Shown: positions 10,151-53,397 of the stretch, piece after piece
Numbering within the stretch: the stretch's first letter is position 1
Layout of the letters: every line of letters starts with the position of its first letter
Source of the DNA: a virus
Direction: 5' to 3' (one strand)
Length of the DNA stretch: 53,572 bases
Virus record (IMG/VR): IMGVR_UViG_3300032516_000036
Coordinates: 1-53,572 of that record
Program-made: the position numbers and the translations under genes
Notes under the pieces: model-generated
Database searches by the model: none
Seen by the model: the letters and a program-made list of their open reading frames with translations, nothing else
What the model was told of the DNA's origin: nothing

Positions 10151-11100
10151 GAATACCTGAACGAAAATATATGCAGGCACTTATGGCTGGACGCATAAGC
10201 TCTGCGCTTTTTGTTGATGACCTTCAGACACGAAAAATAGCCATTCCCAAGGAACGTGATATATTAGATTTACGAAATGAATTAGTAGATTCTAATCCCG
10301 ACTATTTTGCCAGTGCCGACGCTGAAGCTGATCCTGATTGGTTGCAAGGTTGGGGACTTAGCCCCATGTTTTATTTTAGGTTTCAGAAGCCTACAAACCT
10401 ATCGCTAAAAGGGTGTGAGGGTGCTTATCGTATGCTTCAAGATCCTCGGATGTCAAAGTTTATGAGCCTTCTCTCCTTTGGAGGAGTGACTCAAGAAGAT
10501 TTGGAGATCATATTAAATGCCAGATATAATATTTCGTTTGAATCAGAGGATTATACGATGTACTTACGATACTTCTCGAATTATTCGGACTGGACCTTTG
10601 CCGACAAAGAACTATTTTCAGATTCTATCACCGATGTGGATCTTAGGAAATTATATAAGCTTGCGCTTAAAGGTGATCGGGCGCAATTGGTATGGGAATT
10701 GGGCCTAGGATCCGATCCCACATTATCAATGGATGACTTGCTTCGTGATATGTTTACAGACTCATATTTCTTTTTTAAAAAGAATGTAAAGCTTAGACCA
10801 GATGATGCCCAGAAGTTCGCGGGCCTAGCCGTTAAGATATCGGATCGTTTAGAATCGATGCAGGATAAGAAACAGAGTTCACAAGATCTTATCTCTGAAT
10901 TAAAAGTAAAGTTGCAGAATAAAAATACATTAGCAGATCCAAAACAAACTATAATTAATATAGGCGATATTAATGTTGAGCTCCCACAACAAACAACAGA
11001 AGCGATTTCGGATCTACAAGCACTAATGCAGGAAGATATAAAAAATTTCGAGGGTATAGAAAAGCATGATGACGGACAAAGCAAAGAAGATACTCAATAA
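10144..11100 (+). CDS. Hypothetical protein, 318 aa, candidate packaging accessory (small terminase?)
   Basis: It is a soluble mixed helical protein. Notable segments are FGGVTQEDLEIILNARYN near residue 115, LRDMFTDSYFFFKKNV near residue 200, and a coiled-coil-like ISDRLESMQDKKQSSQDLIS near residue 242. The acidic tail ends HDDGQSKEDTQ. It overlaps its neighbours on both sides, so it is translated with them. Genes of this size and position sometimes encode the small terminase subunit. No diagnostic motif confirms this. Confidence 0.6.
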   Translation: MVRIPERKYMQALMAGRISSALFVDDLQTRKIAIPKERDILDLRNELVDSNPDYFASADAEADPDWLQGWGLSPMFYFRFQKPTNLSLKGCEGAYRMLQDPRMSKFMSLLSFGGVTQEDLEIILNARYNISFESEDYTMYLRYFSNYSDWTFADKELFSDSITDVDLRKLYKLALKGDRAQLVWELGLGSDPTLSMDDLLRDMFTDSYFFFKKNVKLRPDDAQKFAGLAVKISDRLESMQDKKQSSQDLISELKVKLQNKNTLADPKQTIINIGDINVELPQQTTEAISDLQALMQEDIKNFEGIEKHDDGQSKEDTQ

Positions 11101-12259
11101 GACAGCAGGAATAACAGCAGTCGTTGCGAAAGCAGCACTCCATTCAGCGGGAGAATCTACGGTGTTTGGAACACATGTTCCTACAGGTCGTGTAATGAAA
11201 GCTATAGCGGGAGGACGAACAGCTGCGCGAACTACAATACGCCCTCAGTTTTTGACTGAAAAAATAGGTGGCGTGGTGGATCGTACTGTTGGAGAACTGA
11301 ATGATCTTCAATGGGGATACCGCCAACTTCGTTCTTCGCATGCTGAAGCTAATTCCTCGAGTCGCAATACCAACTATATGCAGGATTATTTTGCTAAACA
11401 GTCCGCGCGATTAAGAGATGTTGATCCACGTAACCGGGTAGTTAATCATGCACGCGAAAGTGGTGGCCTTATTGGAGCCGGTGTGGGATCGACTGCTGCA
11501 TATCTTCTTACTCGCAAAACAAAAATGAAACCGCTTGCAGGTCTTCTTGGGGTTGCTCCAGGATTCGTTGCAGGAGGAGCACTCGCTTCCGGCGCGGCAA
11601 AAGTATATGAACAAACTAAACGCGCGCCTAAAGGATCCCATAACTTCCATAAGAAAACCGAGCATGAAAAAATCGCCATCATTAGAAACGAGAATAATGG
11701 ATTTCATATTTACTCCCATTCGGGTAAACATTTGGGGGGCCCGTATTCGGAGGATCGGGCAAAAAAACGCCTCCAGCAGATTGAGTACTTCAAAAAACAC
11801 GGGGCCTTTCTCGATAAGTTTCCAAGAATTAGGCGGACGATAGCTACTGCTATGACTGCTGGGTCCCTTGCTACTCCTGCAAAAGCAGGGGTAGGAGATT
11901 TAGTAAAAGCCCTAGAAAAAGAAACTCCAAAACTTGAAGCCGCGACATCATCAAGAGTTTTTTATCATAAACCAGGGTCTCTCGAATCACAGAAATATAT
12001 AGAAGATGTGGGACTAAAGGGCCCTCATTGGGTTACGTCCGACACGGCGCGTAATACTCTTCCTTCCGGGGCAGAAAAAAGACATATTGAAACATTTTAT
12101 TTTCCTCAAGAAAGTGGCGATGTAATGAGAAAAGTTACAAAAGAAACAGTAAACCCAAAGTACCCTAATCTTACAGACCGAGAATCATGGTTTCAAGAAT
12201 TTGATTATGACGAGGCAAAAAAATATTTGGCTACAAAGAAAACTTTGGCAACTAAATGA
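11066..12259 (+). CDS. Virion-associated hypothetical protein, 397 aa, with GKxLGGPYS domain
   Basis: The N-terminal third is basic and Ala-rich. A Gly/Ala hydrophobic segment at about 135-175 (ESGGLIGAGVGSTAAYLLT, then LAGLLGVAPGFVAGGALASG) could span or insert in a membrane. Residues about 198-245 form a small domain, FHIYSHSGKHLGGPYSEDRA followed by KKRLQQIEYFKKHG. I recall this hairpin-plus-helix element from many phage structural proteins. The C-terminus contains a hydrophobic segment and then FYHKPGSLESQKYIEDVG, which hints at an ADP-ribosyltransferase-like strand but is too weak to call. An HEKIA motif precedes the small domain. Confidence 0.65.
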   Translation: MMTDKAKKILNKTAGITAVVAKAALHSAGESTVFGTHVPTGRVMKAIAGGRTAARTTIRPQFLTEKIGGVVDRTVGELNDLQWGYRQLRSSHAEANSSSRNTNYMQDYFAKQSARLRDVDPRNRVVNHARESGGLIGAGVGSTAAYLLTRKTKMKPLAGLLGVAPGFVAGGALASGAAKVYEQTKRAPKGSHNFHKKTEHEKIAIIRNENNGFHIYSHSGKHLGGPYSEDRAKKRLQQIEYFKKHGAFLDKFPRIRRTIATAMTAGSLATPAKAGVGDLVKALEKETPKLEAATSSRVFYHKPGSLESQKYIEDVGLKGPHWVTSDTARNTLPSGAEKRHIETFYFPQESGDVMRKVTKETVNPKYPNLTDRESWFQEFDYDEAKKYLATKKTLATK

Positions 12260-13126: not shown

Positions 13127-13867
13127 ATGTCATTATTTGATACCCCCAGACCATTTTTAAATCCTGTAATATGGACTATAGAACGAACCATAAAACCGGA
13201 AGTTAAAGCTTTTATTTTTAAAACTCTAGAACAGGTGTTTCCTTTAAGTAAAGTGTATTCCACCACGTTTATAGGATCTAATGTCGGATACCAATATTCT
13301 GATACTTCAGATATAGATGTTAATGTAATAGCTCGTAAAGGAGAATTGTTTGAAAAATGGCACAAAGTATTTAAACATTTTAATAACCAGTTAAACTATC
13401 TCCCAGGCACTGAGCATTCTATACATTTCTTTTTTCAAGAGTTTACTCAAGATGAAGATTGGAGTAATTCTTTAGGGGCCTTTAATTTATTTACAGAGAC
13501 ATGGACTAAACAACCAATACCATTTTCAGAGTTAGGTGATCCTGCACTTAGGTATGAGCGTGAAATAGCTTATGGCCGTATATTATTATCCATGATAGAA
13601 ACACAGGTTACGCGAGCTAAAGAAGCTATGGCCCGGGGAGATAAAGACACGGCACAACGTATATATACCGAACTAGCTATTCTTTTTAAACAAATTGAAG
13701 ACAATAGAAAAACAGCATATCGTTATGGAACAGGTACACCGGCACTTCAGGAACATAACATTATATATAAATTAATAGAGGGCAGCGTATATCAAGACCT
13801 ATTTAAGAAGTTAATAGATTTCTATGACGAGGAAATAAACCCAGTTGAATACCACTCTGAATCCTAA
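13127..13867 (+). CDS. Nucleotidyltransferase-fold protein, 246 aa
   Basis: Residues 47-67 contain the pol-beta superfamily signature: FIGSNVGYQYSDTSDIDVNV, with Gly50-Ser51 and the metal-binding pair Asp62 and Asp64. The third acidic residue expected on the next strand is not clear, and His-rich IHFFF occupies that place. The second half is helical (AKEAMARGDKDTAQRIYTEL). Family members add nucleotides to RNA, proteins or small molecules. The setting, just before the terminase, is unusual, and the substrate cannot be inferred. Confidence 0.7.
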   Translation: MSLFDTPRPFLNPVIWTIERTIKPEVKAFIFKTLEQVFPLSKVYSTTFIGSNVGYQYSDTSDIDVNVIARKGELFEKWHKVFKHFNNQLNYLPGTEHSIHFFFQEFTQDEDWSNSLGAFNLFTETWTKQPIPFSELGDPALRYEREIAYGRILLSMIETQVTRAKEAMARGDKDTAQRIYTELAILFKQIEDNRKTAYRYGTGTPALQEHNIIYKLIEGSVYQDLFKKLIDFYDEEINPVEYHSES

Positions 13868-14738
13868 AATATTAGTACCCCTAGGAATAGGGGCAGCTAT
13901 AGGATATGTAGCCGGAGATCCCAAGACTAAACAAACTTTAGACTATGGTAAATATTTGGCTAAACACAAGTATCACGTAATTAAGCCTATGAGAAGCATG
14001 GGCCTAGGTTGGGGACAAGCGTTAAAACACGACCTATCAAAGCTCACCCCAACTGAATTTGGTCCCTATCGAGATTGGTTTGCCGGGCCAAAAGGTATAA
14101 AGGGTACGCGTGATCCTGAGTTGTATGCTAAATGGAGAGAGTCCGTACAACACCATTATCATTCACCTGGAAATATGCATCATTATAGAGCGTTAGGAAT
14201 CAAACAATCAAAAGTTCCCTTGAAATATAGATTGGAAGCTGTGGCGGATTGGTATTCAGTTGGGCGTTCACGTGGAATAACCAGCGAATCTTTTCCTGAA
14301 TGGTATGGTAGATTAAAAGATAAATTGCCTATAAGTCCAGACACTAAAAATACTATTGATACACGGATTGGATTAAAAAAAGAAGCCATAGCTCATGAAC
14401 TAACCATGGCAATTCAAACTGTGATGAATCATCCTAAAGTGATTTCAACAATACAGAGGATTAAAAATGTTCCATTCTTACAAAAGGCGCTGGCCAAAAC
14501 CAAGGAGTTGGACGAAGTTGGAAAACGCATCCATCCCAATTTGCGAAGAGGTGCCCTCGCCGCACAAGTTGCCGGTAATATTGCAACCTTTGCTCTACCA
14601 ACGCCTTATAATCTTATTCCATTTGGAAAAGCCACCGCGGGAACTTATTTGGCTGCATCGGCATATTCGAAAGCATATATAACCAATCCAAAATTCCAGA
14701 GATTCGCTAATTCAGTAATTGGAGCGTTACCGAAATAA
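13845..14738 (+). CDS. DUF5662 family protein with C-terminal extension, 297 aa
   Basis: Residues about 35-175 match the DUF5662 pattern as I know it. They contain YLAKHKYHVIKPM, LKHDLSKLTPTEFGPYRDWF, VQHHYHSPGNMHHY, and then LEAVADWYSVGRSRG with a closing EWY. The conserved HD, HH and ADW elements suggest a metal-dependent hydrolase, though no activity is established to my knowledge. A Gly/Ala hydrophobic N-terminus (LVPLGIGAAIGYVAG) and an Ala-rich C-terminal extension look virion-like. The start is TTG 13845 with GAGG 11 bases upstream, inside the preceding gene. Confidence 0.75.
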   Translation: MNTTLNPKILVPLGIGAAIGYVAGDPKTKQTLDYGKYLAKHKYHVIKPMRSMGLGWGQALKHDLSKLTPTEFGPYRDWFAGPKGIKGTRDPELYAKWRESVQHHYHSPGNMHHYRALGIKQSKVPLKYRLEAVADWYSVGRSRGITSESFPEWYGRLKDKLPISPDTKNTIDTRIGLKKEAIAHELTMAIQTVMNHPKVISTIQRIKNVPFLQKALAKTKELDEVGKRIHPNLRRGALAAQVAGNIATFALPTPYNLIPFGKATAGTYLAASAYSKAYITNPKFQRFANSVIGALPK

Positions 14739-14739
14739 T

Positions 14740-17410: not shown

Positions 17411-18019
17411 ATGGTTAAGGTAGCTGAATTTATTGCACAACACAGGCAAGGCAAGATTTCAAATGCAACGATTATAAAGATGGCGGCATTTAAAGCGGAG
17501 CTAGAAAAAACGGCCGCAGGTGAGAAATTGGTAGGCGCTATACGTACTGCGTTTAGGGACCAAGTTCCCACTATAATTGCTGGAAGTTTGGGGACTGCTG
17601 CAGGCATGTCCTTGGGCGGATTAATTTTTGAGGGTATTCGACAATTAGAAAAACACTGGACTGCTTATAAACTGGATTCTATAAAGGCACCAAGATTTGA
17701 AGCCATGCTAGACATTCATCCGGAACTAAAGGAAAATAAAGAAACTGAAGAACGCGCAGCCTTATATTTTGATTCGCTTTGGCATTTCTCTCCGACCATG
17801 GCGCAGGATCCTTTAGCGGCAGGAACATATATAAAACAAGCATTAAATATGCATCATGTATCCCAAGGACCCTTACCTGAAATGGTGCAGCGCGTAACCG
17901 ATATACAAAAGAATATAAAACAAAGTCTTCCAGAACAAGAATATGCTACGCCTTTAGGTGCGGTGTTCTTACCGTTTAAACCACAAGCAAATAAAGCATA
18001 CAAGCAGTCGGACAAATAG
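17411..18019 (+). CDS. Putative virion protein with hydrophobic segment, 202 aa
   Basis: The start at ATG 17411 directly follows the previous stop; an overlapping upstream start is less likely. The N-terminus, MVKVAEFIAQHRQGKISNAT followed by LEKTAAGEKL, carries the recurring Glu-Lys-x-Ala motif near residue 32. Residues 52-72 (VPTIIAGSLGTAAGMSLGGL) are hydrophobic and Gly-rich. The rest is helical, with a polar C-terminal tail. No recognised family. Its place between the terminase and the protease suggests a capsid-internal or portal-vertex role. Confidence 0.65.
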   Translation: MVKVAEFIAQHRQGKISNATIIKMAAFKAELEKTAAGEKLVGAIRTAFRDQVPTIIAGSLGTAAGMSLGGLIFEGIRQLEKHWTAYKLDSIKAPRFEAMLDIHPELKENKETEERAALYFDSLWHFSPTMAQDPLAAGTYIKQALNMHHVSQGPLPEMVQRVTDIQKNIKQSLPEQEYATPLGAVFLPFKPQANKAYKQSDK

Positions 18020-18020
18020 T

Positions 18021-19781
18021 ATGATAAAATTCACACATTTTTCTTCTATAGATAATCATGGTAAACCTCTTATGAGAATTCTTAACGAAGAGGCGTTGGA
18101 AAAAACTGCCGGATATAAAAAAGATGTTGAGGATTTCATTGGCACGCTTGAAAAGAAAGCGGATCATTCATATATACTGGTAAACGCCATGACATCCGGG
18201 GATTACTACGGTCCAAATCTTAATGGGGATTATTTCCCAGATGATCAGCTTGTGCGTTTCCATAAAACATTTGAGAAACATGCGTATGCCTATCGCCACC
18301 ATCGAAATAAAAATCCTGAAGAAAGCACTGGGAAAGTTATTTATGCTTCTCATAACCCAGACATGCATCGTGTGGAATTGGTAGTGGAACTGGATAATAA
18401 AAAAGCTGAAGATATTATAGAGAGAATGAAACTGGGAGAATACCCAGCCGTATCTATGGGTACACGCACACCTTCAGATAAGTGTTCGATATGCAGTAAC
18501 CGGGCAAAAAATACAGGAGAATATTGTGACCATCTTCGTTATGAAATGAGGCGCATTCTTCCTGATGGCCGAAGAGTAATGGCAATGAATGATGATCGTT
18601 TAACATTCTTTGATATTTCATTTGTACGTATACCCGCAGATCGAACTGCAGGAGTAATTGCAAAAGTTGCATCAGTAACAGATGAGGCAGTAATTCCATC
18701 TGCAGTATTAGGAGATAAATGGTTGAAAGAAAGTGGTTTGAAAGAATCTGCATTAACAAAAGAAGTGCCTGGAACGATTGAAGGTTTTTCGGCAGACCCA
18801 CAAAATTTAATTTATGATTCCCAAAAGAAAATACCGATGGCTGTTATTGATAAGATCGCTGAAGAGCATTCTTTAAAAGATATTCTCTCTACATTTTTAG
18901 GGCTACGAATAATGCCCAAACAAGAGGAGTTCCAAAGGTTAGTTCTCATTAACATGAATAGACAACCCCTCGCAGATCAAGTTATTGATAAGGGTGCTAT
19001 TCTTATGGACATGGATGAACAACCTCGGATTCCTATAGATGTTTCAATAGACGGATTCAATCATGAGATTGCAGCAAAAGTATTACAATATCTTCCCGAA
19101 ATATCTCTTACTAAACCATTAATTATTCGTCGAGTATTAATAAAACGGGCAGACATAGAAAGTGAGCCTCAAGGACTAGTGGCAAAAATGACACAGCTAC
19201 TTCCTACTGTAGGCACACCAAAAGGACCGAGACCATCTTTATATGCACCAGGTAAAAACCCATTATTTCCTTTAGTAGGCTTAGGAGGTTTGTATGCGGG
19301 CTTTGCAAAACTCATGACATCCACAGGCAGCGATCTATCACATTTCCACGCATGGGATGCTATGTTAATGAAAAATCCATATCTTATTCCTATATTTATT
19401 GGCGCTATAGCATTGGGTACGGAAGGGTTACAACAAATTAATCGCGAGAAACATGCGGCAGCGATACCCACACCACAGCAAATGAAAAAAGTTCCGGCAA
19501 TTGCACAACGCATTTTAGTAGGTGTTCCTGCATCATATTTATATGCCGGATATCAAGAAAATAAATTACAACAAGGAAAACCAATATCTAAATTTCAAGA
19601 CATGGTTCGTAAACATCCTTTTATGACCGGTATGGCCGGTATTGGTGCACATGCGTATCTCTGGCCAAAAGTAAAACAAGATCTAGCAAAATTGGGCTCT
19701 CTAGACCGAGTGGTCTATGGACTGGGCCCGGAAAAGTTCGAAGAACTATATAATGATGTCATAGGTGTAACAAACCCTTGA
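18021..19781 (+). CDS. Capsid maturation (prohead) protease with zinc-finger insert and long C-terminal domain, 586 aa
   Basis: Residues 48-205 follow the herpesvirus-assemblin/HK97 prohead protease layout. A conserved NAMTSGDYYGPNLNGDYFP is followed by the probable catalytic His93/94 (YRHHRNKNPEESTGKV), then VELVVELDN and the probable nucleophile Ser145 in YPAVSMGTR, and FFDISFVRIPADRTAG. A CSIC...CDH zinc finger (Cys155, Cys158, Cys169, His171) is inserted after the Ser strand. EKTAG at 27-31 and EKKAD at 44-48 lie just before the protease domain and could be self-cleavage sites. The C-terminal 240 residues hold hydrophobic segments. The length is more than twice that of a simple prohead protease. 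I chose ATG 18021, one base after the previous stop. Confidence 0.8.
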   Translation: MIKFTHFSSIDNHGKPLMRILNEEALEKTAGYKKDVEDFIGTLEKKADHSYILVNAMTSGDYYGPNLNGDYFPDDQLVRFHKTFEKHAYAYRHHRNKNPEESTGKVIYASHNPDMHRVELVVELDNKKAEDIIERMKLGEYPAVSMGTRTPSDKCSICSNRAKNTGEYCDHLRYEMRRILPDGRRVMAMNDDRLTFFDISFVRIPADRTAGVIAKVASVTDEAVIPSAVLGDKWLKESGLKESALTKEVPGTIEGFSADPQNLIYDSQKKIPMAVIDKIAEEHSLKDILSTFLGLRIMPKQEEFQRLVLINMNRQPLADQVIDKGAILMDMDEQPRIPIDVSIDGFNHEIAAKVLQYLPEISLTKPLIIRRVLIKRADIESEPQGLVAKMTQLLPTVGTPKGPRPSLYAPGKNPLFPLVGLGGLYAGFAKLMTSTGSDLSHFHAWDAMLMKNPYLIPIFIGAIALGTEGLQQINREKHAAAIPTPQQMKKVPAIAQRILVGVPASYLYAGYQENKLQQGKPISKFQDMVRKHPFMTGMAGIGAHAYLWPKVKQDLAKLGSLDRVVYGLGPEKFEELYNDVIGVTNP

Positions 19782-22048: not shown

Positions 22049-22960
22049 ATGGAAAATCTAAATCCACGAACAGTGAACGAGCTCTTCGTCCAGAAACTGG
22101 ATACCGAGCATGAAAAAGTAGCGGCCGAAACGGCAGCATTTATACGTACGAAGCTTCGTGAAGTTTCGTTTGCACGTAAAATAATTAACCCGCAATATGT
22201 AACGAAAGCCGATTTACAGAGAAGTGTCAACCATGACCAGCTCGTAAAAGTTATCGACATTGAACCAGATTCGTCAGCAATGATGATCAATCTTCGCGGT
22301 AACCCGGATGTACGATACGTTGAGGGGAAACGCGCTGAAATGCAATTCTTCAATATTTCGTCTGAGGAATTCCAAAAGACCGAAGAAGAGCTTTTAGCAT
22401 ATGAAATGCCAGTTACAGAAGTCATCGAACGTAATTCGATTAAAGATATTCAGAAAATCGAAGACACTGCGTTTATGACAGGCGTCAACGCGGCAATTAC
22501 AGTATCTGGAAAGTCCACGACATACGCCGTGACCACATCCGGAACGATCGAAATAGCAGCGTTTGTGAGACTCTTTAATACATTAGAGGGTTCAAGCACA
22601 GGCGTCAATCCGTTAAAGACAGACATGGTTCTTATGAATCTGGCCGACTTTAATAAATTCTTAGCATTACCTGCAACCACAATTGGTTCGGGCGTTGCCG
22701 GAGAACAATATGTAAATGGCTATAAATACGATACACTTTTAGGCAAGAAACTCATTGTCACGAATAAAGGCGATCTGGTTCCTGAAAAGACAATTTATGC
22801 ATTCACGTCTCAGGAGTTCTTAGGTAAGTTCTTCATTCTCAATGATACGAAGTTCTGGGTCGAGAAGAAACGTAATCTAATCAAATGGTCTGCTTATGAA
22901 ACCATCTCTCAGGGTATCTTAAACAACCTAGCGTGTGCAAAACTCACACTCACGCCGTAA
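22049..22960 (+). CDS. Major capsid protein, HK97-fold type, 303 aa
   Basis: Size, position and elements fit an HK97-fold capsid protein. A charged N-terminal arm is followed by FARKIINPQYVTKADLQRSV, a central E-loop-like segment (MMINLRGNPDVRYVEGKRAE), a long spine-helix region (IKDIQKIEDTAFMTGVNAAI), and a P-domain ending with TIYAFTSQEFLGKFFILNDT. Residues 20-26 (EHEKVAA) carry the Glu-Lys-x-Ala motif, so the first 25 residues may be removed at maturation. AAGGAGAG lies 8 to 10 bases upstream. A strong terminator follows. I assign the fold from gene order and layout, not from a match to a specific family. Confidence 0.8.
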   Translation: MENLNPRTVNELFVQKLDTEHEKVAAETAAFIRTKLREVSFARKIINPQYVTKADLQRSVNHDQLVKVIDIEPDSSAMMINLRGNPDVRYVEGKRAEMQFFNISSEEFQKTEEELLAYEMPVTEVIERNSIKDIQKIEDTAFMTGVNAAITVSGKSTTYAVTTSGTIEIAAFVRLFNTLEGSSTGVNPLKTDMVLMNLADFNKFLALPATTIGSGVAGEQYVNGYKYDTLLGKKLIVTNKGDLVPEKTIYAFTSQEFLGKFFILNDTKFWVEKKRNLIKWSAYETISQGILNNLACAKLTLTP

Positions 22961-35981: not shown

Positions 35982-36056
35982 ATGAAACGTAACAGAACAG
36001 CCAATGAGTTTATTTCTAAATGTAAAAAAATTTTAGCCCATTATAATACGAAATGA
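35982..36056 (+). CDS. Possible 24-aa leader peptide
   Basis: A frame in the 187-base gap before the glycan operon gives MKRNRTANEFISKCKKILAH followed by YNTK and stops in an ATGA overlap with the first glycosyltransferase. Overlapping coupling is the rule in this operon. It lacks a ribosome site, so chance is possible. I see no promoter in the rest of this gap. Confidence 0.3.
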   Translation: MKRNRTANEFISKCKKILAHYNTK

Positions 36057-36793: not shown

Positions 36794-36796
36794 AAT

Positions 36797-43824: not shown

Positions 43825-43825
43825 T

Positions 43826-44509: not shown

Positions 44510-45180
44510 GCTTACAAGTAAAAACAGAACATCCGGTAGCAATTGATTCGCCGGACCACAAATGGCCGAAAGGCACAAGATATGATAATCATACCGACCC
44601 TATATTTATAGAAGAGGTAGAAAAATATTTCAACAATCAAAAAATTAACTTCGTCGATCTCGGTTGTGCAGGAGGCCAATTAGCACTGGACTTTATGGGT
44701 CGTGGGCATACCGCTCTTGGCTTAGAAGGAAGTGATTATTCTGCAATAAACAAAAGAGAGGGTTGGGCACGGTACTATGAAAAATATCTTTTTACTTGCG
44801 ATCTAACCAAACCCTATACAATTACGAAAGATGATAAACCGTTACTATTCGACTGTATTACATCGTGGGAAGTATTGGAACATATAAAAGAAGAAGATCT
44901 GCCGCAGTTCATGCAGAATATCGTAAACCATTTAAAACCAGAAGGAATTTTTTGTGCTTCCGTTACTTCTTATCCTGACTTTTTTGGTTTGATGGTACCG
45001 CCATATACTCCCGAGCTAGACAAACCCCTACACCAAACAGTACAACCATTTGAATGGTGGAGACAAAATATATTTGCACCGTACATTGAACTCATAGAAC
45101 CATATCCATTCACCAGCCATGTTCGTGCGGACGTTAATCCGCCTTATTCAGCATGGTTCGCATCAAGGAAAAAACAATGA
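44506..45180 (+). CDS. SAM-dependent methyltransferase, second of three paralogs, 224 aa
   Basis: VDLGCAGGQLALDFMGRGH at about 50 and the LEGSDYS and ITSWEVLEHIKEEDLPQFM segments match the first and third copies. AAGGA lies 5 bases before the ATG, which overlaps the previous stop as ATGA. The sequence shared with the third copy (IEEVEKYFNNQKINFVDLG) is especially close, indicating a recent duplication. It probably methylates the same glycan at another position. Confidence 0.85.
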   Translation: MSLQVKTEHPVAIDSPDHKWPKGTRYDNHTDPIFIEEVEKYFNNQKINFVDLGCAGGQLALDFMGRGHTALGLEGSDYSAINKREGWARYYEKYLFTCDLTKPYTITKDDKPLLFDCITSWEVLEHIKEEDLPQFMQNIVNHLKPEGIFCASVTSYPDFFGLMVPPYTPELDKPLHQTVQPFEWWRQNIFAPYIELIEPYPFTSHVRADVNPPYSAWFASRKKQ

Positions 45181-45848
45181 TATTCACCATTAAAACAGAA
45201 TGGCCAGTAGCCATAGATTCAAACGACCATCTTCATCCTAAAGGAACAAAGGATGATAACCACACTTCGCTTGCTTATATAGAAGATGTGGAAAAATATT
45301 TTAACGATAGAAAAATTAATTTTATGGACCTCGGTTGTGCAGGCGGTCAGCTTGCAGTAGACTTTGCTACAAGAGGGCATAATGCCTTAGGCATAGAAGG
45401 TAGCGACTATTCTGCAGTACATGGTAGAGCGTGTTGGGCAGAGTATCATAATAAGAATCTTTTCACATGCGATATCAAGAAACCTTTTACAGTATTAGGG
45501 GATGGAGAACCAATCTTATTTGATTGTATTTCTTCATGGGAAGTTTTAGAGCATATTAAGCGTCCAGATCTTCCACAAATGTTACAGAACGTGGCCGACC
45601 ACTTGAAACCGGATGGTATCTTTACCGCCAGTATAACGCACTGCCAAGATTTTTGGGATAATGGACAACCTCCTTATACGAAACATTATGATATTCTTAT
45701 GCATGAAACGGTCGAAGAGCCCGCGGTATGGCACAATGAAATTTTAGCACCATACTTCGAATTTCTTCCCTACCCATTCAGAAGCCACGTACGTGACGAA
45801 TTAGACCAATGGGGAGTTACAACTTGGTTTATGGCAAGAAAGAAATGA
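45177..45848 (+). CDS. SAM-dependent methyltransferase, third of three paralogs, 223 aa
   Basis: I chose ATG 45177, which overlaps the previous stop as ATGA and has AAGGA 7 bases upstream. IEDVEKYFNDRKINFMDLG, GLAVDFATRGH-like and SDYSAVHGRACWAEYHNK segments align with the second copy. The core binds SAM at DLGCAGG (51-57). It is soluble with no membrane segment. It is likely a sugar O- or N-methyltransferase. Confidence 0.85.
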   Translation: MIFTIKTEWPVAIDSNDHLHPKGTKDDNHTSLAYIEDVEKYFNDRKINFMDLGCAGGQLAVDFATRGHNALGIEGSDYSAVHGRACWAEYHNKNLFTCDIKKPFTVLGDGEPILFDCISSWEVLEHIKRPDLPQMLQNVADHLKPDGIFTASITHCQDFWDNGQPPYTKHYDILMHETVEEPAVWHNEILAPYFEFLPYPFRSHVRDELDQWGVTTWFMARKK

Positions 45849-46786
45849 AAACATTATACACATTAATAGATCCTTATCCGTACTCACAACTCACTGTACA
45901 CGAAGATTATAAAGTGTTGGCAAAGAGGCTTGGGTACGAACATAAATTCTATACAATTGACCAGCAAATAAGGGAAGAGATCGACCACGACTCTTCCCCC
46001 GATGCTATTTTTATGTTTGAGCCGGCGCTATTAAAACACCCCCACAAAACAACTAAAGATATAAGACGGTGGTTTCCAAACTGTAAAATAGTAGCTCTCT
46101 CGTCAGAAGCGCTTACATATAAGCACGGATACCAATGGTGGTATCCAGAAAATTTAACGAAAGAGTTTGAGATTTACGATGGGTATGAAGTAGATCTTTG
46201 GCTCGATATCAACGATGAGATAGTAGAAGACTATCGAGCAAAAGGTTTGAAAGTGGATACTTGGGAAATGACTACATCTCATTTCTTAATCGATCTTTAT
46301 GAAAATCGTGTACGATTGCCAAAGACACAAGATATCATTAGCCTGATGGGACATAGAAATCCTTATCGCAACGCTCTTATAGAGTTTCTCTCCGCGCGAT
46401 ATAAATGTCAGTTCGGCGTACATCCAGATCATGCGGATTTCAACTTAGATCACATGTATGAGCAATTTTCTGGTTCGCGTATTGTATTGGGAACGTCTTC
46501 TCCCTGTTGGTGGTCTCAAAGAAGTATGAAGGGTTTTCGTGATTGGATAGGCCCAATCTGCGGTACTGTACTTATTTACGATAATTACCCAGATGTTTTA
46601 AAGAAATATCCAACGTGTCCAATATATGACTATGATAAATTTGAAACTATAGTAGATCGGATCAATGAGTTGGTAAACAATCCAGAACACTATTATGCTG
46701 TATTGGCAACTCAATTGTCGTGGATAAAAGAAAACACTATTGCCATCCAATTATTTAACGCATTAACCAAATATAATATTGTATGA
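45845..46786 (+). CDS. GT-B-like glycosyltransferase, first of a tandem pair, 313 aa
   Basis: I chose ATG 45845, which overlaps the previous stop. The product has two Rossmann-like halves: KIVALSSEALTYKHGYQWWY in the first, and an RIVLGTSSPCWWSQRSMKGF segment in the second before GTVLIYDNYPDV. The second half resembles CgeB-type GT-B enzymes with a His-Arg nucleotide-binding area. Its neighbour downstream is about as long and has the same layout. No membrane anchor. Confidence 0.75.
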   Translation: MKTLYTLIDPYPYSQLTVHEDYKVLAKRLGYEHKFYTIDQQIREEIDHDSSPDAIFMFEPALLKHPHKTTKDIRRWFPNCKIVALSSEALTYKHGYQWWYPENLTKEFEIYDGYEVDLWLDINDEIVEDYRAKGLKVDTWEMTTSHFLIDLYENRVRLPKTQDIISLMGHRNPYRNALIEFLSARYKCQFGVHPDHADFNLDHMYEQFSGSRIVLGTSSPCWWSQRSMKGFRDWIGPICGTVLIYDNYPDVLKKYPTCPIYDYDKFETIVDRINELVNNPEHYYAVLATQLSWIKENTIAIQLFNALTKYNIV

Positions 46787-47730
46787 AATACATTTATTCT
46801 GTAGTAGATCCCTACCAACCGTCACAACTAACTGTACACCGTGATCTCGAATATTTAGCAGGTATGTTGGGATATGGCTACAAAGGGTATATGCACGAAC
46901 AATTCGACGCAGGACAAGTGGAACCAGATTCTACCCCCGGGACTATATTTGTATTTGAAGGTGCTGATCTAAAGGTTTCTAACAAGACTACGAAAGATGT
47001 GCGGGGCTGGTTTCCCAATAGTAAGCTTGTTGCCCTTACTGGGGAATCTCTTACTTACAAATATGGCTACGGCCATTACACAAACAACCCCACAAAGGAA
47101 TTTGAGTTCTATGATGGCCATGATATTGATCTCTGGTTGGATGGCAATGATGAGATAGTAACAGATTATCGAGCAATTGGATTGACTATTGATTACTGGA
47201 TGTGGACAACGAGCCATTACCTCATCGAACAATTTATCAATCGAGAAAGAATTCCTAAAGTTCAAGACACAGTATGCCTCATAGGACATAAAGGCCCTTA
47301 TCGTCACCAGTTGATGGACTTTATGAACCAACGATATAGATGCCAGTGGGGCACTGGAGCTGATGTTGGTAACTATGATCTCGACCATCTATTTAGTTCC
47401 TTTGGCGGATCACGGTTTGTTCTTGGAACAACTTCTCCGTGTTGGTGGATAAATAGATCAGTAAAAGGTTTTCGAGATTGGCTTGGACCACTCTGTGGGA
47501 CCGTCTTAATATATGACAATTATCCTGATGTTGTAAAGAAGTATCCATGCCCAATATACGACTATGATAATCTAAATACAATTGCAGAGTTGATGGAAAG
47601 TATATGGAATGATCCAATAAAGTATCAACAAATATTAAATGAACAGGTTGCTTGGGTTAAAGAAAATACCATAGCTAAACAACTATACAATCGCTTTAAA
47701 CAATACAATATAATAGAAGGATTACAATGA
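46783..47730 (+). CDS. GT-B-like glycosyltransferase, second of a tandem pair, 315 aa
   Basis: It starts MKYIYSVVDPYQPSQLTVHR, parallel to MKTLYTLIDPYPYSQLTVHE of the previous protein, and shares KLVALTGESLTYKYGYGH and RFVLGTTSPCWWINRSVKGF. The pair arose by tandem duplication and probably adds related sugars. It overlaps both neighbours as ATGA. No ribosome site is seen, so it depends on coupling. Confidence 0.75.
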   Translation: MKYIYSVVDPYQPSQLTVHRDLEYLAGMLGYGYKGYMHEQFDAGQVEPDSTPGTIFVFEGADLKVSNKTTKDVRGWFPNSKLVALTGESLTYKYGYGHYTNNPTKEFEFYDGHDIDLWLDGNDEIVTDYRAIGLTIDYWMWTTSHYLIEQFINRERIPKVQDTVCLIGHKGPYRHQLMDFMNQRYRCQWGTGADVGNYDLDHLFSSFGGSRFVLGTTSPCWWINRSVKGFRDWLGPLCGTVLIYDNYPDVVKKYPCPIYDYDNLNTIAELMESIWNDPIKYQQILNEQVAWVKENTIAKQLYNRFKQYNIIEGLQ

Positions 47731-48374
47731 CAGTACACGAATATATAAGAGATTCAATTATTGGTATCGAAACGCCAATCTTAGTAAACATAGGAGCTGA
47801 ACGTGGAGACGGGGAAACGACCGACTTCTGTACAGTTGCCCCGCACGGGAAAGTTTATTCAATCGAAGCCGATCCACGTACTTATGCGCTTCTGGAACCA
47901 AGAATGAATCAGTTCCCCAACCTAAAAACTTTCAACATAGCAATAGCAAATAAGAACGAGATGACAACATTCTATCTTAGCGGTGGTCCGAATCCCGCGG
48001 AACCGTATCATCCCTGGACATCAGCTTCTAACCTATTCTCGCGCGAACGAGATCATTCGGGAAACTATTATCCGTGGATGACTTCAGAGCCAATTCAAGT
48101 ACAATGCCGTACGCTGGATTCATGGGCGGAAGAGAATGGTGTAGACCACATAGATTTTCTTTGGGTCGATATAGAAGGTGCCACACATTTACTTATTGAG
48201 GGTGGACAGAATATTTTAGCCAAAACAAAGTGGTTCTATACAGAAGCCTTTGATTGGCAACGGTATGATGGTGAAGGTTTGAAGAAAGATATTATCGCCT
48301 TAGTTCCAAATTTCGAATTGGTAGCAGACTATGGAAATGATGTACTACTAAAGAATAAAGTTTATAATGCCTAA
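47727..48374 (+). CDS. FkbM-family methyltransferase, 215 aa
   Basis: The FkbM layout is visible: ILVNIGAERGDGE binds SAM, KVYSIEADPRTYALLEPRM follows, then NIAIANKNEMTTFYLSGG and DFLWVDIEGATHLLIEGGQN, closing with FYTEAFDWQRYDGEG. FkbM proteins are SAM-dependent O-methyltransferases of polyketides and of bacterial and phage glycans. AAGGA lies 6 bases before the ATG. It overlaps the next gene by 8 bases. Confidence 0.85.
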   Translation: MTVHEYIRDSIIGIETPILVNIGAERGDGETTDFCTVAPHGKVYSIEADPRTYALLEPRMNQFPNLKTFNIAIANKNEMTTFYLSGGPNPAEPYHPWTSASNLFSRERDHSGNYYPWMTSEPIQVQCRTLDSWAEENGVDHIDFLWVDIEGATHLLIEGGQNILAKTKWFYTEAFDWQRYDGEGLKKDIIALVPNFELVADYGNDVLLKNKVYNA

Positions 48375-49140
48375 TCCTGGAATAATGTTGGCTGCATGGC
48401 CCGGGTCCCAACATTCTTTGACCATAGGAAAATATTTTCTTAAAACATACGAAGAGTATTTTCCAGATGCTACGATATATATTGGCATCAACGACGGTCC
48501 TTTTTTAGAGCAGTGGCTTGAAATATTAAAAGCCAGCAACTTAAATATACTTTATGATATTACCCCGAAAGCCATAACTATGAATTCAGATGCAAGTGCC
48601 TATCAGACTGCTCTGAAACTGTATAAAGAGAGTGGGAATGTTCACGATCTAATATGGTTTAATCATTTTAAAGGTGCCAGTCATGCCGAACATGAGTTAC
48701 AGGCATCCCAATTCTATTCACAAACTGATGGCTTAATGTGTAATAGACATGAAATAGAACAAGTGTTCTTGGATAATGATGCTGTGGGGTTGTATGCATT
48801 AACGGGCTGGCCAATCCACCACGATAAGTTGGACATTGGGCATGAGGATGATTTTAGTTCTCGATACCTAACTCTGCCATACTCAACTTTACGCATCACT
48901 GTTGTTTATACATTCTATGTTGCACGTGCAAAAGCAATTAGATACATAGTTGATAATGCAACAGTAGATTTCTTTGAACAGCCATACCCACATCGATTCT
49001 TCTTCGAACAGGATTTTTATCATATGATCTTCAGACAGGGTTATATACCCATTATTAAAATACCTTACCCGGGCCACGGCTTTACACAACAAACATTTAC
49101 AACTATAATAGATAAATGGAAAGCAGATAATAATTTATGA
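48367..49140 (+). CDS. Glycosyltransferase-like protein, 257 aa
   Basis: It begins with PNPGIMLAAWPGSQHSLTIG and contains ATIYIGINDGPFLEQWLEIL. A DLIWFNHFKGASHAEHELQA segment follows, then EDDFSSRYLTLPYSTL, and the C-terminus contains FFEQDFYHMIFRQGYIPIIK. The arrangement of strands and acidic motifs suggests a GT-A-type transferase, but there is no clean DxD. The position in the operon is the main support. Substrate unknown. Confidence 0.6.
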   Translation: MPNPGIMLAAWPGSQHSLTIGKYFLKTYEEYFPDATIYIGINDGPFLEQWLEILKASNLNILYDITPKAITMNSDASAYQTALKLYKESGNVHDLIWFNHFKGASHAEHELQASQFYSQTDGLMCNRHEIEQVFLDNDAVGLYALTGWPIHHDKLDIGHEDDFSSRYLTLPYSTLRITVVYTFYVARAKAIRYIVDNATVDFFEQPYPHRFFFEQDFYHMIFRQGYIPIIKIPYPGHGFTQQTFTTIIDKWKADNNL

Positions 49141-49700
49141 AATCATTTGAAGAGATATGGAAGATAGGATTAGATCACAAGATTCAGCAAAAGAAAGTAG
49201 AATTTTTTCCATTTATGGAATTGTTGCTACAAGAGAATGTAAAAAATATTATGGAGATCGGTATGTGTTATGGAGGCTCCACAGTATGTTTTGCAAACTT
49301 GGCAGATGTAGTTATTGGCATAGACGTTCCTATTACAGCAAATGGAATTCCAACAGATGTATTAAGATCATACTGCGATTTTCGGCATGTTATTGGTAAT
49401 ACGCACGATGACAGTACAGTAGAATTAACAAGACAAACTTTGAATGGGTTATTGGTGGACATGTTATTTATTGACGGCGACCATGGTGCAGTTGGTGTCT
49501 GGCAGGACTTTAATAAATTTAGTCCGTTTGTAAAGTCTGGTGGTCTTGTTGCTTTCCATGATATTGCGGATAGTGTAGAACATAGATCTGTGGGAGTTAA
49601 TCTGGTGGAAGTATATAATGAACTTGTTAAGACGCACAGGCATACGGAGTTTATGGAGCCGGGTGGATTAGATTGTGGGATCGGGGTTATATGGCTATGA
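49137..49700 (+). CDS. Class I methyltransferase, Methyltransf_24/CmcI-like, 187 aa
   Basis: NIMEIGMCYGGSTVCFANLA binds SAM, VVIGIDVPITANGIPTDV supplies the acidic second strand, and LFIDGDHGAVGVWQDFNKFS with VKSGGLVAFHDI completes the core. This layout belongs to the cephalosporin-hydroxylase-like group of small O-methyltransferases found in polysaccharide clusters. It overlaps both neighbours as ATGA. The acceptor is unknown. Confidence 0.8.
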   Translation: MKSFEEIWKIGLDHKIQQKKVEFFPFMELLLQENVKNIMEIGMCYGGSTVCFANLADVVIGIDVPITANGIPTDVLRSYCDFRHVIGNTHDDSTVELTRQTLNGLLVDMLFIDGDHGAVGVWQDFNKFSPFVKSGGLVAFHDIADSVEHRSVGVNLVEVYNELVKTHRHTEFMEPGGLDCGIGVIWL

Positions 49701-50374
49701 AAGATACACCTATTTTTATAAATAGCAAGGATCGCTATTCATATCTCAAAAAGTTGGTCACACGCCTGGAAGAATTGGAGACGACTAATATAACTATTGT
49801 CGATACCGGTTCTACGTATCCTCCAATGTTGGAATACTATGAAACGTTAAAGTATCCTATTAAGCGCTTGGGCAATGTACAAACAGATGCCCACCATGCC
49901 CTATGGAATTGTGGTTTGATGCCAGACGGATGGTTTGTATACACTGATTGCGACGTTGTTCCGATGGAAGAATGTCCTAAAGATTATTTGGATTTTTTTT
50001 ATGCTTCGCTTATGAAGTACCCCCAAAAAGTAAAAATTGGTTTTGGATTACATATCGAAGATATCCCAGATCACTATAAACATAAACATGTACTACCGGG
50101 GGAAGATGTGGGACTGCATCCAGGTGTATTGGAATGGGAAGCTCATTTTTGGCAAAATCCCATAGATAATCTTCTTTATGACGCTGACATAGATACCACA
50201 TTTGCTTTATATAGACCGGGAACAATAGGTAGAACAGGACAGCCAGCCATACGTACGGGGCATCCCTACGCCGCCCGTCATTTAACATGGTATACAAATT
50301 CTTCAAATCTTACTGAAGAAGAGATCTATTATAAGGCACATGTAGTTCCAGGAGTTAGCTCTTGGGGTATATAG
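49697..50374 (+). CDS. Glycosyltransferase-like (GT-A) protein, paralog of 36797-37504, 225 aa
   Basis: I chose ATG 49697, which overlaps the previous stop as ATGA. TPIFINSKDRYSYLKKLVTR, TDCDVVPMEECPKDYLDFF, and IDTTFALYRPGTIGRTGQ with AARHLTWYTN match the second gene of the operon. These shared parts include the DxD-like TDCDVV. It ends the operon. The same protein type at both ends suggests they add the first and last units, or came from a cluster duplication. Confidence 0.75.
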   Translation: MKDTPIFINSKDRYSYLKKLVTRLEELETTNITIVDTGSTYPPMLEYYETLKYPIKRLGNVQTDAHHALWNCGLMPDGWFVYTDCDVVPMEECPKDYLDFFYASLMKYPQKVKIGFGLHIEDIPDHYKHKHVLPGEDVGLHPGVLEWEAHFWQNPIDNLLYDADIDTTFALYRPGTIGRTGQPAIRTGHPYAARHLTWYTNSSNLTEEEIYYKAHVVPGVSSWGI

Positions 50375-50424: not shown

Positions 50425-50640
50425 ATGAAAAAACAATCATTATTTATCCCGCGCTCTAACATGATAGGTGCCCCCGTCAACATGCATAATGTGAAACGGC
50501 AGCCCTCACATTCATTTAAAGCAGTTAGTGCTGTAGGTGCTTCAAGACAAGAAGGCCCATACGGCGGAGCAGTAGATAAAATAGGATCAGTCCTAACAAA
50601 AAAAGCACAGGCAATACTTCAAAAAATTGCGGGGGCATAA
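50425..50640 (+). CDS. Small virion-type protein with KKA and QKIA motifs, 71 aa
   Basis: A basic, Gly- and Pro-containing N-terminal part (FIPRSNMIGAPVNMHNVKRQ) is followed by a helical C-terminus, KIGSVLTKKAQAILQKIAGA, that carries the repeated Lys-Lys-Ala and Lys-Ile-Ala motifs. The gene lies 3 bases before the ligase fusion. It may be a short capsid-targeting or scaffold-type peptide. No known family. Confidence 0.6.
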   Translation: MKKQSLFIPRSNMIGAPVNMHNVKRQPSHSFKAVSAVGASRQEGPYGGAVDKIGSVLTKKAQAILQKIAGA

Positions 50641-50643
50641 ACA

Positions 50644-53397
50644 ATGCCTGAAATCCCTCAATCAGCAATGATGTTTGCGGACGATGCAGTTGTTTGGGGT
50701 GTCAAATTATTAAACGCATACGAGCAAGAGAAGCAATCGCCGAAAACAAAAAAAGCAAAAAAAATTCTTGAGAAGAAGGCAGACGGTATGTATCTTCTCG
50801 ATGACGCACTGATTATGGGAAATAAACTGATGAAGCCGAAGAACCCTTCGGTACAAAAACCGCAACAAGCCGGTATTACTAAGATATCTGGACGTTATTT
50901 TATAAATGCCGAGGTCCCACCGCATATTCGTTCGTTACTTCGTGGTACCATAGCCCCTCAAAATAGGCACATGACATTAAAATTTTTAGGGGATTTGTCT
51001 GAAAAAGAAATAGGCGCCGTAAAAATTGTGCTGAATAGATTATCTGAAGAGGTCGCCGCGCCGGTAAAACATGTTGGATACAGTAATGCAACAAGACATG
51101 CTGTCCAAGGAGTCTACCATGCGGAAATGCATTCATCTGGATTACAGCGTATATTGAATAAATTAAATCGATTTTTACCGACACCGTCTTCGAATAAATT
51201 TAAGCCTCACATAACTCTTAGTATCGGGGCACCTGGTGAAATAACTAAATTCCGCATACCTACATTTAGAGTAAAAAAAATACAGCTAATGAGTTCCGAT
51301 GGACAACACAATTATACGCCTATTCACGAGGTACAGTTAAAAAAGAAAGCAGAGTATGCTCCAGGAATACCTTCACGACACAGCAAAGAATTGCCTCGAA
51401 TATCTGAGCCTCAGGCTATGCGTCTCGCTATTCAGTCGCACAAGGCCAGACGAGCTGGGCACCATTATGATGTTCGCATTGTTGATGAAAAGACGGGCAA
51501 AGCCTATTCCTGGGCGGCTCGAAATCTTCCTACGAACCCAGGCGATAAAACTCTTGCAATATTACAACCTACCCATACAGCCGAATACTCAACATGGTCT
51601 GGCAAAATTGAATCTGGGTATGGAGCCGGAGATGTAGAGTTATTTAGTCAGGATAAAATTGAGGTTACAAAAGCAGAGCCACAAAAAATAACTTTCAATG
51701 TCTATAAATCTAACGGAGATACTGAACGTTATGCCATGATTAATACCAGCGGAGACCAGTGGCTATTTCACAACGTTACTCCAACACGCACTACCCGACC
51801 AGAGATTCCAAATGAGAAGCCGCATTACAAATCCATATCGCCAGACACACTTGATCCGAATAAACCAAATGAAGTGTGGTCGCCAAAAATAGATGGAGCT
51901 TTAAATGTTTTTAGATTGGTACCAGATAAACCCATTGAAACTTATTCCTATAGACCGTCGGCCAAAGGTATTAATAAACTTATTGATCATACTTTTCGGA
52001 TTGGACTTCATAGGACGATTGTCCCCACGGCGTTTAAAGGGCACACAGTGGTACTTGGAGAAGTCTTTGCCCGTGATCGCTCTAGTGGTAATGTCCTACC
52101 CTCCACGGATACATCGGCTCGTCTTTTATCTAATGTGTGGAGATCTCGAGAGCTTCAACAACACGCTCCGCTTGATAATGTGGTTTTTAATGTATTGCGA
52201 TATAATGGACGTGATGTGTCTGCTAAGCCATACGCAGAAAAACTTCAAATATTAAAGCAAATCACAGCTGCAGTCCCCCAACTAAAAATGCCCCCTCTTC
52301 ATACTACCGAAGATAGTAAATTTGAACTTATGAAGGATATTAAAGCTGGTAAGCATCCACTGACAGGCGAGGGTGTGGTGGTATATAAACTGAATGAATC
52401 TATTCCGCTCAAGTCAAAGTTACAACAAGACTATGATGTATTCATCCGAGGAGTATTTCCGGGTGAGGGTAAGTATAAAGGTAAAGCGGCAGGAGGCTTT
52501 ACATATTCATTTAAACCGGCTGGTAAAATTATAGGTAAGGTAGGAACTGGGCTCTCTGATACAATGAGAACCGATCTCTGGAAACAGCCAAAGAAATATA
52601 CTGGATCCGTGGCGCGTATATTTGCACAACAACAATTGCCCAGTGGATCATTAAGAATGCCGGTATTTAAAGATATACGTAGTGAAAAGTTTGCTGAGGC
52701 AAAACAATTTTTATTAAAACAGGCGTTATTCGATACTCCACAAGCGTATGAATTTGGTGCTAAGATAACCATAGATAGAGCGAAGAAAATTTGGGAGACA
52801 GCTACTCAAGCAAGCAATAAACTAAAAACCCCATTATCGGAGTTAAATAAACTTACTCGAGGCGAGAGGACGGCTTTAATACAAAAACATTATAAAGTGC
52901 AAGTAGGTAAAGAGATTGTTCATGGGCATATGTTAAAAAATACTGCCGCTCCTGCAGGAGTAGGCAAAGTAAATTATACCCCAGAAGAAGTGGAGAGCTA
53001 TTTGTATAAAAAAGCTTATCCAGCAGCTACCGAACCATCGACAAATTATCCTCTAGCTTCAACAAATTTACACGAGATAGGAAAAACACAGGGGGCAGAT
53101 ATGCCTGATCCTAATGTTCAAATGCTCGAAGATAACCCCTATATATCTCGAGCATCGGCAGTTAAGGTTAAAGAGAGCCGTAAATTTTTACGTAAAAAAG
53201 CCGATGCTTCGGCGCCTCTAACAACTGGAGGTGATCTTTATATGTCTGAAACACCAAAGACACAAAATTTTTATCAAGACATTACTCCGCAACGTATTAC
53301 AGAACATATAGCTGACAATCCTTCTGCAACGGCTCCAGCAATGACGGCCACTAAAGACATAGGGGGCCGAAAGGTCAGAATTGCTACACGGCCTTGA
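50644..53397 (+). CDS. Multidomain end-healing and sealing enzyme: 2H phosphoesterase, LigD-type 3'-phosphoesterase and ATP-dependent DNA ligase, 917 aa
   Basis: Residues 80-200 are a LigT-like 2H phosphoesterase with two HxT motifs, His109/Thr111 (RHMTLKFLGDL) and His189/Thr191 (PHITLSIG). Residues 255-380 match the LigD 3'-phosphoesterase: SHKARRAGHHYDVRIV, KAYSWAARNLPTNPGDK, EYSTWSGKIESGYGAGDVEL. Residues 410-680 are a DNA ligase adenylation and OB region: Lys415 in KIDG, GEVFARD at 472-478, EGVVVYK at 576-582, SKLQQDYDVF and a final RMPVFKDIRSEK. The 230-residue tail is of unknown fold. EKKAD at 43-47, KKKAE at 233-237, EKFAE at 681-685, YKKA at 788-791 and KKAD at 851-854 sit at domain boundaries. 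It could repair and seal nucleic-acid ends, perhaps in the virion. Confidence 0.8.
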   Translation: MPEIPQSAMMFADDAVVWGVKLLNAYEQEKQSPKTKKAKKILEKKADGMYLLDDALIMGNKLMKPKNPSVQKPQQAGITKISGRYFINAEVPPHIRSLLRGTIAPQNRHMTLKFLGDLSEKEIGAVKIVLNRLSEEVAAPVKHVGYSNATRHAVQGVYHAEMHSSGLQRILNKLNRFLPTPSSNKFKPHITLSIGAPGEITKFRIPTFRVKKIQLMSSDGQHNYTPIHEVQLKKKAEYAPGIPSRHSKELPRISEPQAMRLAIQSHKARRAGHHYDVRIVDEKTGKAYSWAARNLPTNPGDKTLAILQPTHTAEYSTWSGKIESGYGAGDVELFSQDKIEVTKAEPQKITFNVYKSNGDTERYAMINTSGDQWLFHNVTPTRTTRPEIPNEKPHYKSISPDTLDPNKPNEVWSPKIDGALNVFRLVPDKPIETYSYRPSAKGINKLIDHTFRIGLHRTIVPTAFKGHTVVLGEVFARDRSSGNVLPSTDTSARLLSNVWRSRELQQHAPLDNVVFNVLRYNGRDVSAKPYAEKLQILKQITAAVPQLKMPPLHTTEDSKFELMKDIKAGKHPLTGEGVVVYKLNESIPLKSKLQQDYDVFIRGVFPGEGKYKGKAAGGFTYSFKPAGKIIGKVGTGLSDTMRTDLWKQPKKYTGSVARIFAQQQLPSGSLRMPVFKDIRSEKFAEAKQFLLKQALFDTPQAYEFGAKITIDRAKKIWETATQASNKLKTPLSELNKLTRGERTALIQKHYKVQVGKEIVHGHMLKNTAAPAGVGKVNYTPEEVESYLYKKAYPAATEPSTNYPLASTNLHEIGKTQGADMPDPNVQMLEDNPYISRASAVKVKESRKFLRKKADASAPLTTGGDLYMSETPKTQNFYQDITPQRITEHIADNPSATAPAMTATKDIGGRKVRIATRP

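Follow-up and report, generated by a model that had tools for sequence, protein, structure and literature searches.

A LigD-type phosphoesterase-ligase and a 2H domain in a predicted phage head polyprotein with putative K-x-A protease joints

Introduction

Polyvalent proteins carry several unrelated enzyme domains per chain, are encoded near virion genes and are mosaic in composition, with 2H phosphoesterases among their listed domains and release ascribed to embedded peptidases (Iyer et al., 2017, PMC5512222). Anti-signalling or RNase roles were proposed for the 2H domains of these proteins, no 2H domain was reported together with RNA ligases, and the term 'DNA ligase' is absent from the text of that study. 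The internal head proteins Alt and IPI-III of phage T4 have a single function and one propeptide, the capsid targeting sequence, which the protease gp21 removes, and they are packed and injected (PMC9026906). The prohead protease gp245 of phage SPN3US makes multiple cuts in internal and ejected head proteins at A-x-E, a short motif whose middle position is free, and mostly removes N-terminal propeptides (PMC10052503). End sealing of incoming genomes is known from mycobacteriophages Corndog and Omega which, according to Pitcher et al. (2006) as cited in PMC4351075 and PMC7719229, circularise their genome with a phage Ku and the LigD of the host. Bacterial LigD itself joins a 3'-phosphoesterase (PE) domain to an ATP-dependent ligase.

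Here we describe one open reading frame of IMG/VR virus record IMGVR_UViG_3300032516_000036 (53,572 bases, analysed over its whole length and called the window). Like polyvalent proteins, its product holds at least two biochemically unrelated domains in one chain and is encoded among virion and late genes; unlike them, it would be released by the prohead protease in trans at predicted K-x-A sites, the T4 motif being I/L-x-E. Packing and injection as in T4 are proposed here, and in contrast to the T4 and SPN3US substrates several enzymes would arise from one chain with several sites. The PE-ligase pairing is that of LigD, but the protein is viral, lacks a polymerase domain and has a 2H domain in front. 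Corndog and Omega resemble the proposed use of NHEJ-type sealing on incoming ends, although in the citing accounts Ku comes from the phage and LigD from the host, whereas here the phage supplies the PE-ligase and Ku was not found. A literature search, incomplete in its journal coverage, returned no description of K-x-A joints or of a virion polyprotein containing a LigD-type PE-ligase. Of the systems already described, polyvalent proteins, the T4 internal head proteins and the Ku/LigD pairing of the mycobacteriophages come nearest.

Results and discussion

The 917-residue protein is encoded on the strand of the structural genes. Judging by its gene set, the virus appears to be a contractile-tailed phage: the window encodes TerL (14719-16326), a head protease (17958-19781) and a major capsid protein (MCP, 22049-22960), and a tail sheath gene is seen downstream in the near-identical contig L001. 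ORF 50644-53397 shares its strand with TerL, protease and MCP. L001, a second metagenome contig, holds a 99% identical copy of the ORF with 25 substitutions, 20 of them synonymous, and comparison with the 70% identical relative L002 indicates strong purifying selection (synonymous changes saturated, dN 0.12). Phage records searched by tblastn, with the complete protein, its 2H or PE portion or a stand-alone PE-ligase as query, gave ordinary ligases or noise only, so no record of that phage collection was found with the 917-aa protein; a scan of genome contigs found no relative, and none of the anti-phage defence models matched the protein. The gene is laid out as follows, a slash in a motif marking the predicted cut.

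50644..53397, plus strand: polyprotein gene with leader, 2H, PE, ligase and C-terminal cassettes (ATG start, 917 aa, open frame)
50644..50781, plus strand: N-terminal leader, residues 1-46, ending LEKKA/DG; candidate head-targeting propeptide by analogy with the T4 capsid targeting sequence, kept in L002 (there LRKQA/EYAPG)
50875..51342, plus strand: 2H (LigT-type) phosphoesterase domain, residues 78-233, with HMT109 and HIT189 (motifs, profiles, fold)
51412..51783, plus strand: LigD-type 3'-phosphoesterase domain, about residues 257-380 (profile, PDB matches, alignment, model)
51856..52683, plus strand: ATP-dependent DNA ligase (nucleotidyltransferase and OB), about residues 405-680 (profiles, invariant motifs, Foldseek)
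52726..53016, plus strand: helical cassette, residues 695-791, ending YKKA/YP; L002 has a DUF5661 cassette at the same place
53017..53394, plus strand: conserved C-terminal segments 792-853 and 854-917, with site K851-K-A853 between them

The fusion of the three enzyme domains is real, as indicated by domain profiles, folds and invariant catalytic residues. An earlier note on this DNA had read 2H, LigD-type PE and ligase in one frame from motifs and had suggested domain searches and structure prediction as checks; the searches returned LigT-type 2H, LigD_N and DNA ligase matches, and the reading is borne out. The two HxT motifs it reported are HMT at 109 and HIT at 189, and both histidines are conserved in the stand-alone homologues L149 and L151. 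The NCBIfam equivalog model for RNA 2',3'-cyclic phosphodiesterase (TIGR02258) matches residues 103-232 (E 1e-8) with 35-41 bits, under the curated cut-off of 65.7, and Pfam LigT matches residues 104-144 (2e-4, slightly below cut-off), so that the domain is placed in the 2H superfamily only. Since full-length AF2 modelling gave no confident 2H domain, owing to alignment depth, this part was folded on its own with two diverged homologues. The resulting model, of moderate confidence (pLDDT 66), shows the 2H fold that had been expected for residues 80-230, and Foldseek puts E. coli LigT at the top of its PDB matches (E 5e-9, probability 1.00). That LigD joins PE and ligase, as the note stated, stands; the 2H domain in front, for which it named no other case, is without parallel in the other fused relatives examined and recurs only in the near-identical L001.

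The PE and ligase domains are related to those of LigD. Pfam LigD_N (PF13298) scores 41.1 bits on residues 264-343, above its curated cut-off of 31.1, and a PDB sequence search with the PE domain matches LigD PE structures. H266, H274, D276, R278, H311 and Y315 are invariant in nine viral homologues and are, as we assume from knowledge of the family, the catalytic residues of the PE. The same nine homologues show invariant ligase motifs I, III, IV and V (KIDG 415-418, which the note had picked out as the ligase site, E473, EG 576-577 and K590/K592). Pfam DNA_ligase_A_M matches residues 468-545 with a score at the cut-off and the ligase OB model (OB_2) matches 606-679 below cut-off. The NCBIfam model for LigD-type ATP-dependent ligases (NF007210) aligns from residue 257, spanning PE and ligase, and the 917-aa protein scores far under the cut-offs of the NCBIfam LigD models; Pfam detects no Pol domain in it, and the Pol-PE-ligase architecture of LigD is thus not seen. 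A full-length AF2 model is confident over about residues 241-680 only, where it has a DNA-ligase fold whose Foldseek matches are DNA ligases including LigD, in keeping with the structure prediction suggested for PE and ligase; its pLDDT drops sharply at 237 and 681, edges that partly reflect alignment depth. The motifs at 415-592 and the OB domain place the protein among ATP-dependent DNA ligases with predicted sealing activity. No Ku was found in the 29 contigs searched, which leaves classical NHEJ unsupported.

The PE-ligase belongs to the late side of the genome. PE-ligase and MCP are on one strand in 16/16 contigs with both, and an ordinary ATP ligase is on the strand opposite the PE-ligase in 10/10 contigs with both, several contigs in these counts being near-copies of one another. 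This pattern indicates that the PE-ligase is not simply the replicative ligase. To judge from gene content and strand, it is a dedicated second ligase; G001 and G002 each have an ordinary ATP ligase besides it.

K-x-A is very probably the signature of the head protease. The pattern L-x-K-[KQ]-A of the earlier reader occurs 5 times in the 917-aa protein versus 0.08 in shuffled sequence, but was taken from that protein itself; independent support comes from unbiased scans, a T4 control and the edge statistics given below. In the scans, every ordered residue pair with gaps of 0-3 (1,600 gapped pairs) was ranked in head genes. Within the window, K-x-A ranks top for the head genes, with 43 copies against 13.5 expected (z 8.0), and the remaining genes show no enrichment (65 against 69.6 expected). 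It comes first or second in the head genes of G002, G006 and G009, and across 32 capsid-related contigs it is rank 1 in 18 and rank 1 or 2 in 25. Among isolated phages, Vibrio phage D69 has it at rank 1 and Salmonella phage Arash at rank 2. Plain K-[KQ]-A proved too narrow and was given up for the K-x-A of the unbiased scan. The specificity of T4 gp21 is recognised to be I-x-E or L-x-E, and the same scan on T4 as a positive control returns I-x-E first for head genes, and I-x-E followed by L-x-E for core genes. At the MCP N-terminus, K-x-A stands just before a conserved FIRxKLR in 39/39 distinct sequences while x and spacing vary, and the protease itself has sites ahead of its protease region.

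17958..19781, plus strand: head maturation protease, 607 aa, the proposed processing enzyme; protease region about residues 72-239, closely preceded by K-x-A at residues 49 and 66
22049..22960, plus strand: major capsid protein with N-terminal site EHEKVA/AET (residues 23-25)

The motif is common to MCP, protease and scaffold proteins, as expected of a substrate motif of the prohead protease. A core-like head protein of 343 aa (16378-17409) has 11 K-x-A sites and, by analogy with T4 core proteins, is probably shredded by the protease.

The predicted sites in the polyprotein fall at module joints. The earlier note had proposed a polyprotein with protease sites at domain edges and placed motifs at residues 43, 233, 681, 788 and 851; these correspond to K44, K234, K682-F-A684, K789 and K851, and K692-Q-A694 is a further site.

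50773..50781, plus strand: predicted protease site K44-K-A46, at the 5' boundary of the 2H cassette missing from L002
51343..51351, plus strand: predicted protease site K234-K-A236 (KKA/EYAPG), at the natural N-terminus of stand-alone PE-ligases
52687..52695, plus strand: predicted protease site K682-F-A684, at the end point of stand-alone orthologues
52717..52725, plus strand: predicted second protease site K692-Q-A694 near the ligase end
53008..53016, plus strand: predicted protease site K789-K-A791
53194..53202, plus strand: predicted protease site K851-K-A853, dividing the C-terminal segments

Four lines of evidence indicate that these sites mark real module joints, and the proposal is well supported by them. 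First, the 2H cassette is missing from L002 precisely site to site: the leader there reads AKKILRKQA/EYAPG, and the matching window sequence is AKKILEKKA, the 2H domain and LKKKA/EYAPG. Second, free PE-ligases of other phages start with MEEFAPG, MKEYAPG, MAEFAPG or MEYAPG, which corresponds to the window joint 236/237, and stop at about the window joint 680-684. Third, fused forms have K-x-A at the edges of the PE-ligase core far more often than shuffled extensions do: on the N side a copy is no more than 10 aa away in 5/9 (0.9 expected, P 4e-4), and on the C side one is no more than 25 aa from the ligase end in 8/8 (1.8 expected, 0/5,000 shuffles). Fourth, a tree of 24 cores implies at least three switches between fused and free states. 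K-x-A over the whole 917-aa chain is not enriched (9 vs 7.4 expected); it is the linker sites alone that stand out, and two copies fall within the OB fold (K614, K624). A K-x-A leader is absent from most stand-alone PE-ligases, and packaging is not suggested for those.

Cassettes are exchanged among late proteins of these phages. In other polyproteins the PE-ligase is accompanied by DUF192 (L170), a P-loop kinase (L174) or DUF5661 (L002), and in those of L156, L176 and L180 by further modules. In L182 (2343-5438) a 1031-aa protein combines a LigD-type primase-polymerase, found in this relative only, with a P-loop kinase and a LigD-type PE; its gene adjoins a multisubunit RNA polymerase-like gene. 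In the G006 version of a different late protein, a homologue of window 11066-12259, the DUF5661 cassette of L002 can be recognised by eye (DFxPKSIxxGxxVExEHT...AMDHLTEDPxYYxKLKKMEKK), and the N-terminal cassette of L156 is similar to a segment of that window protein. The DUF5661 and GKxLGGPYS cassettes each occur in different polyproteins. Three further window genes belong here.

11066..12259, plus strand: second cassette-type late protein, with N-terminal ILNKTA leader and segment boundary EHEKIA/IIR
13845..14738, plus strand: third cassette-type late protein (DUF5662); an additional N-terminal module, with weak metallopeptidase likeness in G006, is present in relatives and has been gained or lost near HHEK(K/T)
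50425..50640, plus strand: small gene upstream of the polyprotein gene, with K-x-A present twice (VLTKKA, ILQKIA) and a C-terminal module gained or lost in relatives

The PE-ligase polyprotein of L176 (4047-8900) has 1617 aa and many K-x-A sites. Stand-alone LigD-type PE proteins of 144-152 aa (L143, L147 and L148) occur in related phages, and in G013 and G015 a stand-alone PE coexists with a full PE-ligase elsewhere on the contig. In L166 and L171, from the 210-kb relatives G016 and G046, an uninterrupted full-length PE-ligase frame requires TGA readthrough; as TGA falls on a conserved Trp, this suggests recoding of TGA as Trp. Code-4 frames of 2,569 and 1,396 aa in L175 and L178 were rejected as artefacts and table-11 frames used instead.

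Taken as a whole, we consider it probable that the gene encodes a late, head-directed polyprotein which is cut by the head protease and whose enzymes are injected, the PE-ligase repairing incoming DNA and the 2H domain being an optional cassette. The polyprotein would be made together with head and tail genes, as its position and strand show, and the leader would carry it to the prohead core as T4 capsid targeting sequences do. Cleavage after K-x-A by the head maturation protease in trans, which we infer from motif statistics, gene ends of relatives and cassette gain and loss, would then yield a 2H enzyme of ~190 aa, a PE-ligase of ~450 aa and smaller peptides. The polyprotein is probably packaged in the virion, and the released enzymes would go into the host along with the DNA. 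There, going by family knowledge and the two-ligase pattern, the PE would remove 3'-phosphates or 3'-ribonucleotides to leave 3'-OH and the ligase, independent of Ku and apart from the ordinary replicative ligase, would close nicks or joined ends in the incoming genome. That the enzymes serve to protect or circularise this genome, as the earlier note proposed, is a speculative further step, no Ku having come up in the 29 contigs. The 2H cassette would open cyclic phosphates on RNA or nucleotide signals and need not work with the ligase.

A close competitor, to which we give slightly less than an even chance, is a polyvalent effector of unrelated cassettes in which the 2H domain serves counter-defence against cyclic or 2'-5' nucleotide signals (or acts as an RNase), the PE-ligase serves DNA repair and one chain is used only for packaging. 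The closest relatives, L002, L005 and L156, have no 2H domain, in G042 and G044 it is encoded separately and close to the head genes, such roles were proposed for 2H domains of polyvalent proteins (Iyer et al., 2017, PMC5512222), and the 2H model has weak structural similarity to the anti-CBASS protein Acb1, although its top structure and profile matches are LigT and RNA 2',3'-cyclic phosphodiesterase. The cassette is separable and may have another purpose than the PE-ligase; its action in one pathway with PE and ligase is weakly supported. It is unlikely that the enzyme instead acts late, sealing nicks or ends of concatemers before or during packaging and being cut merely from sitting in the prohead: late position and strand and the separate ordinary ligase in the replication region would fit, but the leader, the repeated internal sites and the cassette exchange with other head polyproteins would be left unexplained. 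Less likely again is an ordinary multidomain repair enzyme, uncut and unpackaged, with K-x-A incidental in Lys/Ala-rich linkers; the unenriched total over the chain and the many leaderless free-standing PE-ligases agree with it, while the edge statistics, the exact match to gene ends of free relatives and the site-to-site cassette loss in L002 argue against it. Repair of cleaved host or phage RNA, with the 2H domain opening cyclic phosphates, the PE healing 3' ends and the ligase sealing, is the least probable, for although 2H and LigD-type PE enzymes both work on ribose-containing 3' ends and the 2H domain matches LigT, the ligase matches DNA ligases by profile and fold, and in relatives the partners of PE or PE-ligase are a LigD-type primase-polymerase and P-loop kinases.

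If the polyprotein reading is correct, capsid maturation in a widespread tailed-phage group doubles as polyprotein processing, with one protease both shaping the capsid and freeing a swappable set of injected enzymes. K-x-A at cassette edges would then be a sequence rule for listing injected proteins of uncultured phages, and the PE-ligase would hint that phages bring their own Ku-free means to repair or close incoming genomes. An RNA-end enzyme, a DNA 3'-end cleaner and a DNA ligase lined up between likely protease sites suggest a virus that packs and injects repair tools and exchanges them with other viruses as cassettes. More tentatively, and as a possibility on which we would not yet rely, the PE-ligase, in relatives with a P-loop kinase or LigD-type primase-polymerase, may form a virion-delivered, Ku-independent DNA end-repair kit of exchangeable head-polyprotein cassettes, with prohead-protease sites as joints at which recombination lets new enzymes join the injected set.

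Upstream of the polyprotein gene, genes resembling glycosyltransferases, epimerases and methyltransferases form a long island (36053-50374) between structural genes, with tandem duplicates (44506/45153 and 45809/46783). At 39085-41646 the window encodes an 853-aa B12-binding radical SAM protein with a LAGLIDADG domain at residues 448-502, possibly an intein or a homing-endonuclease insertion.
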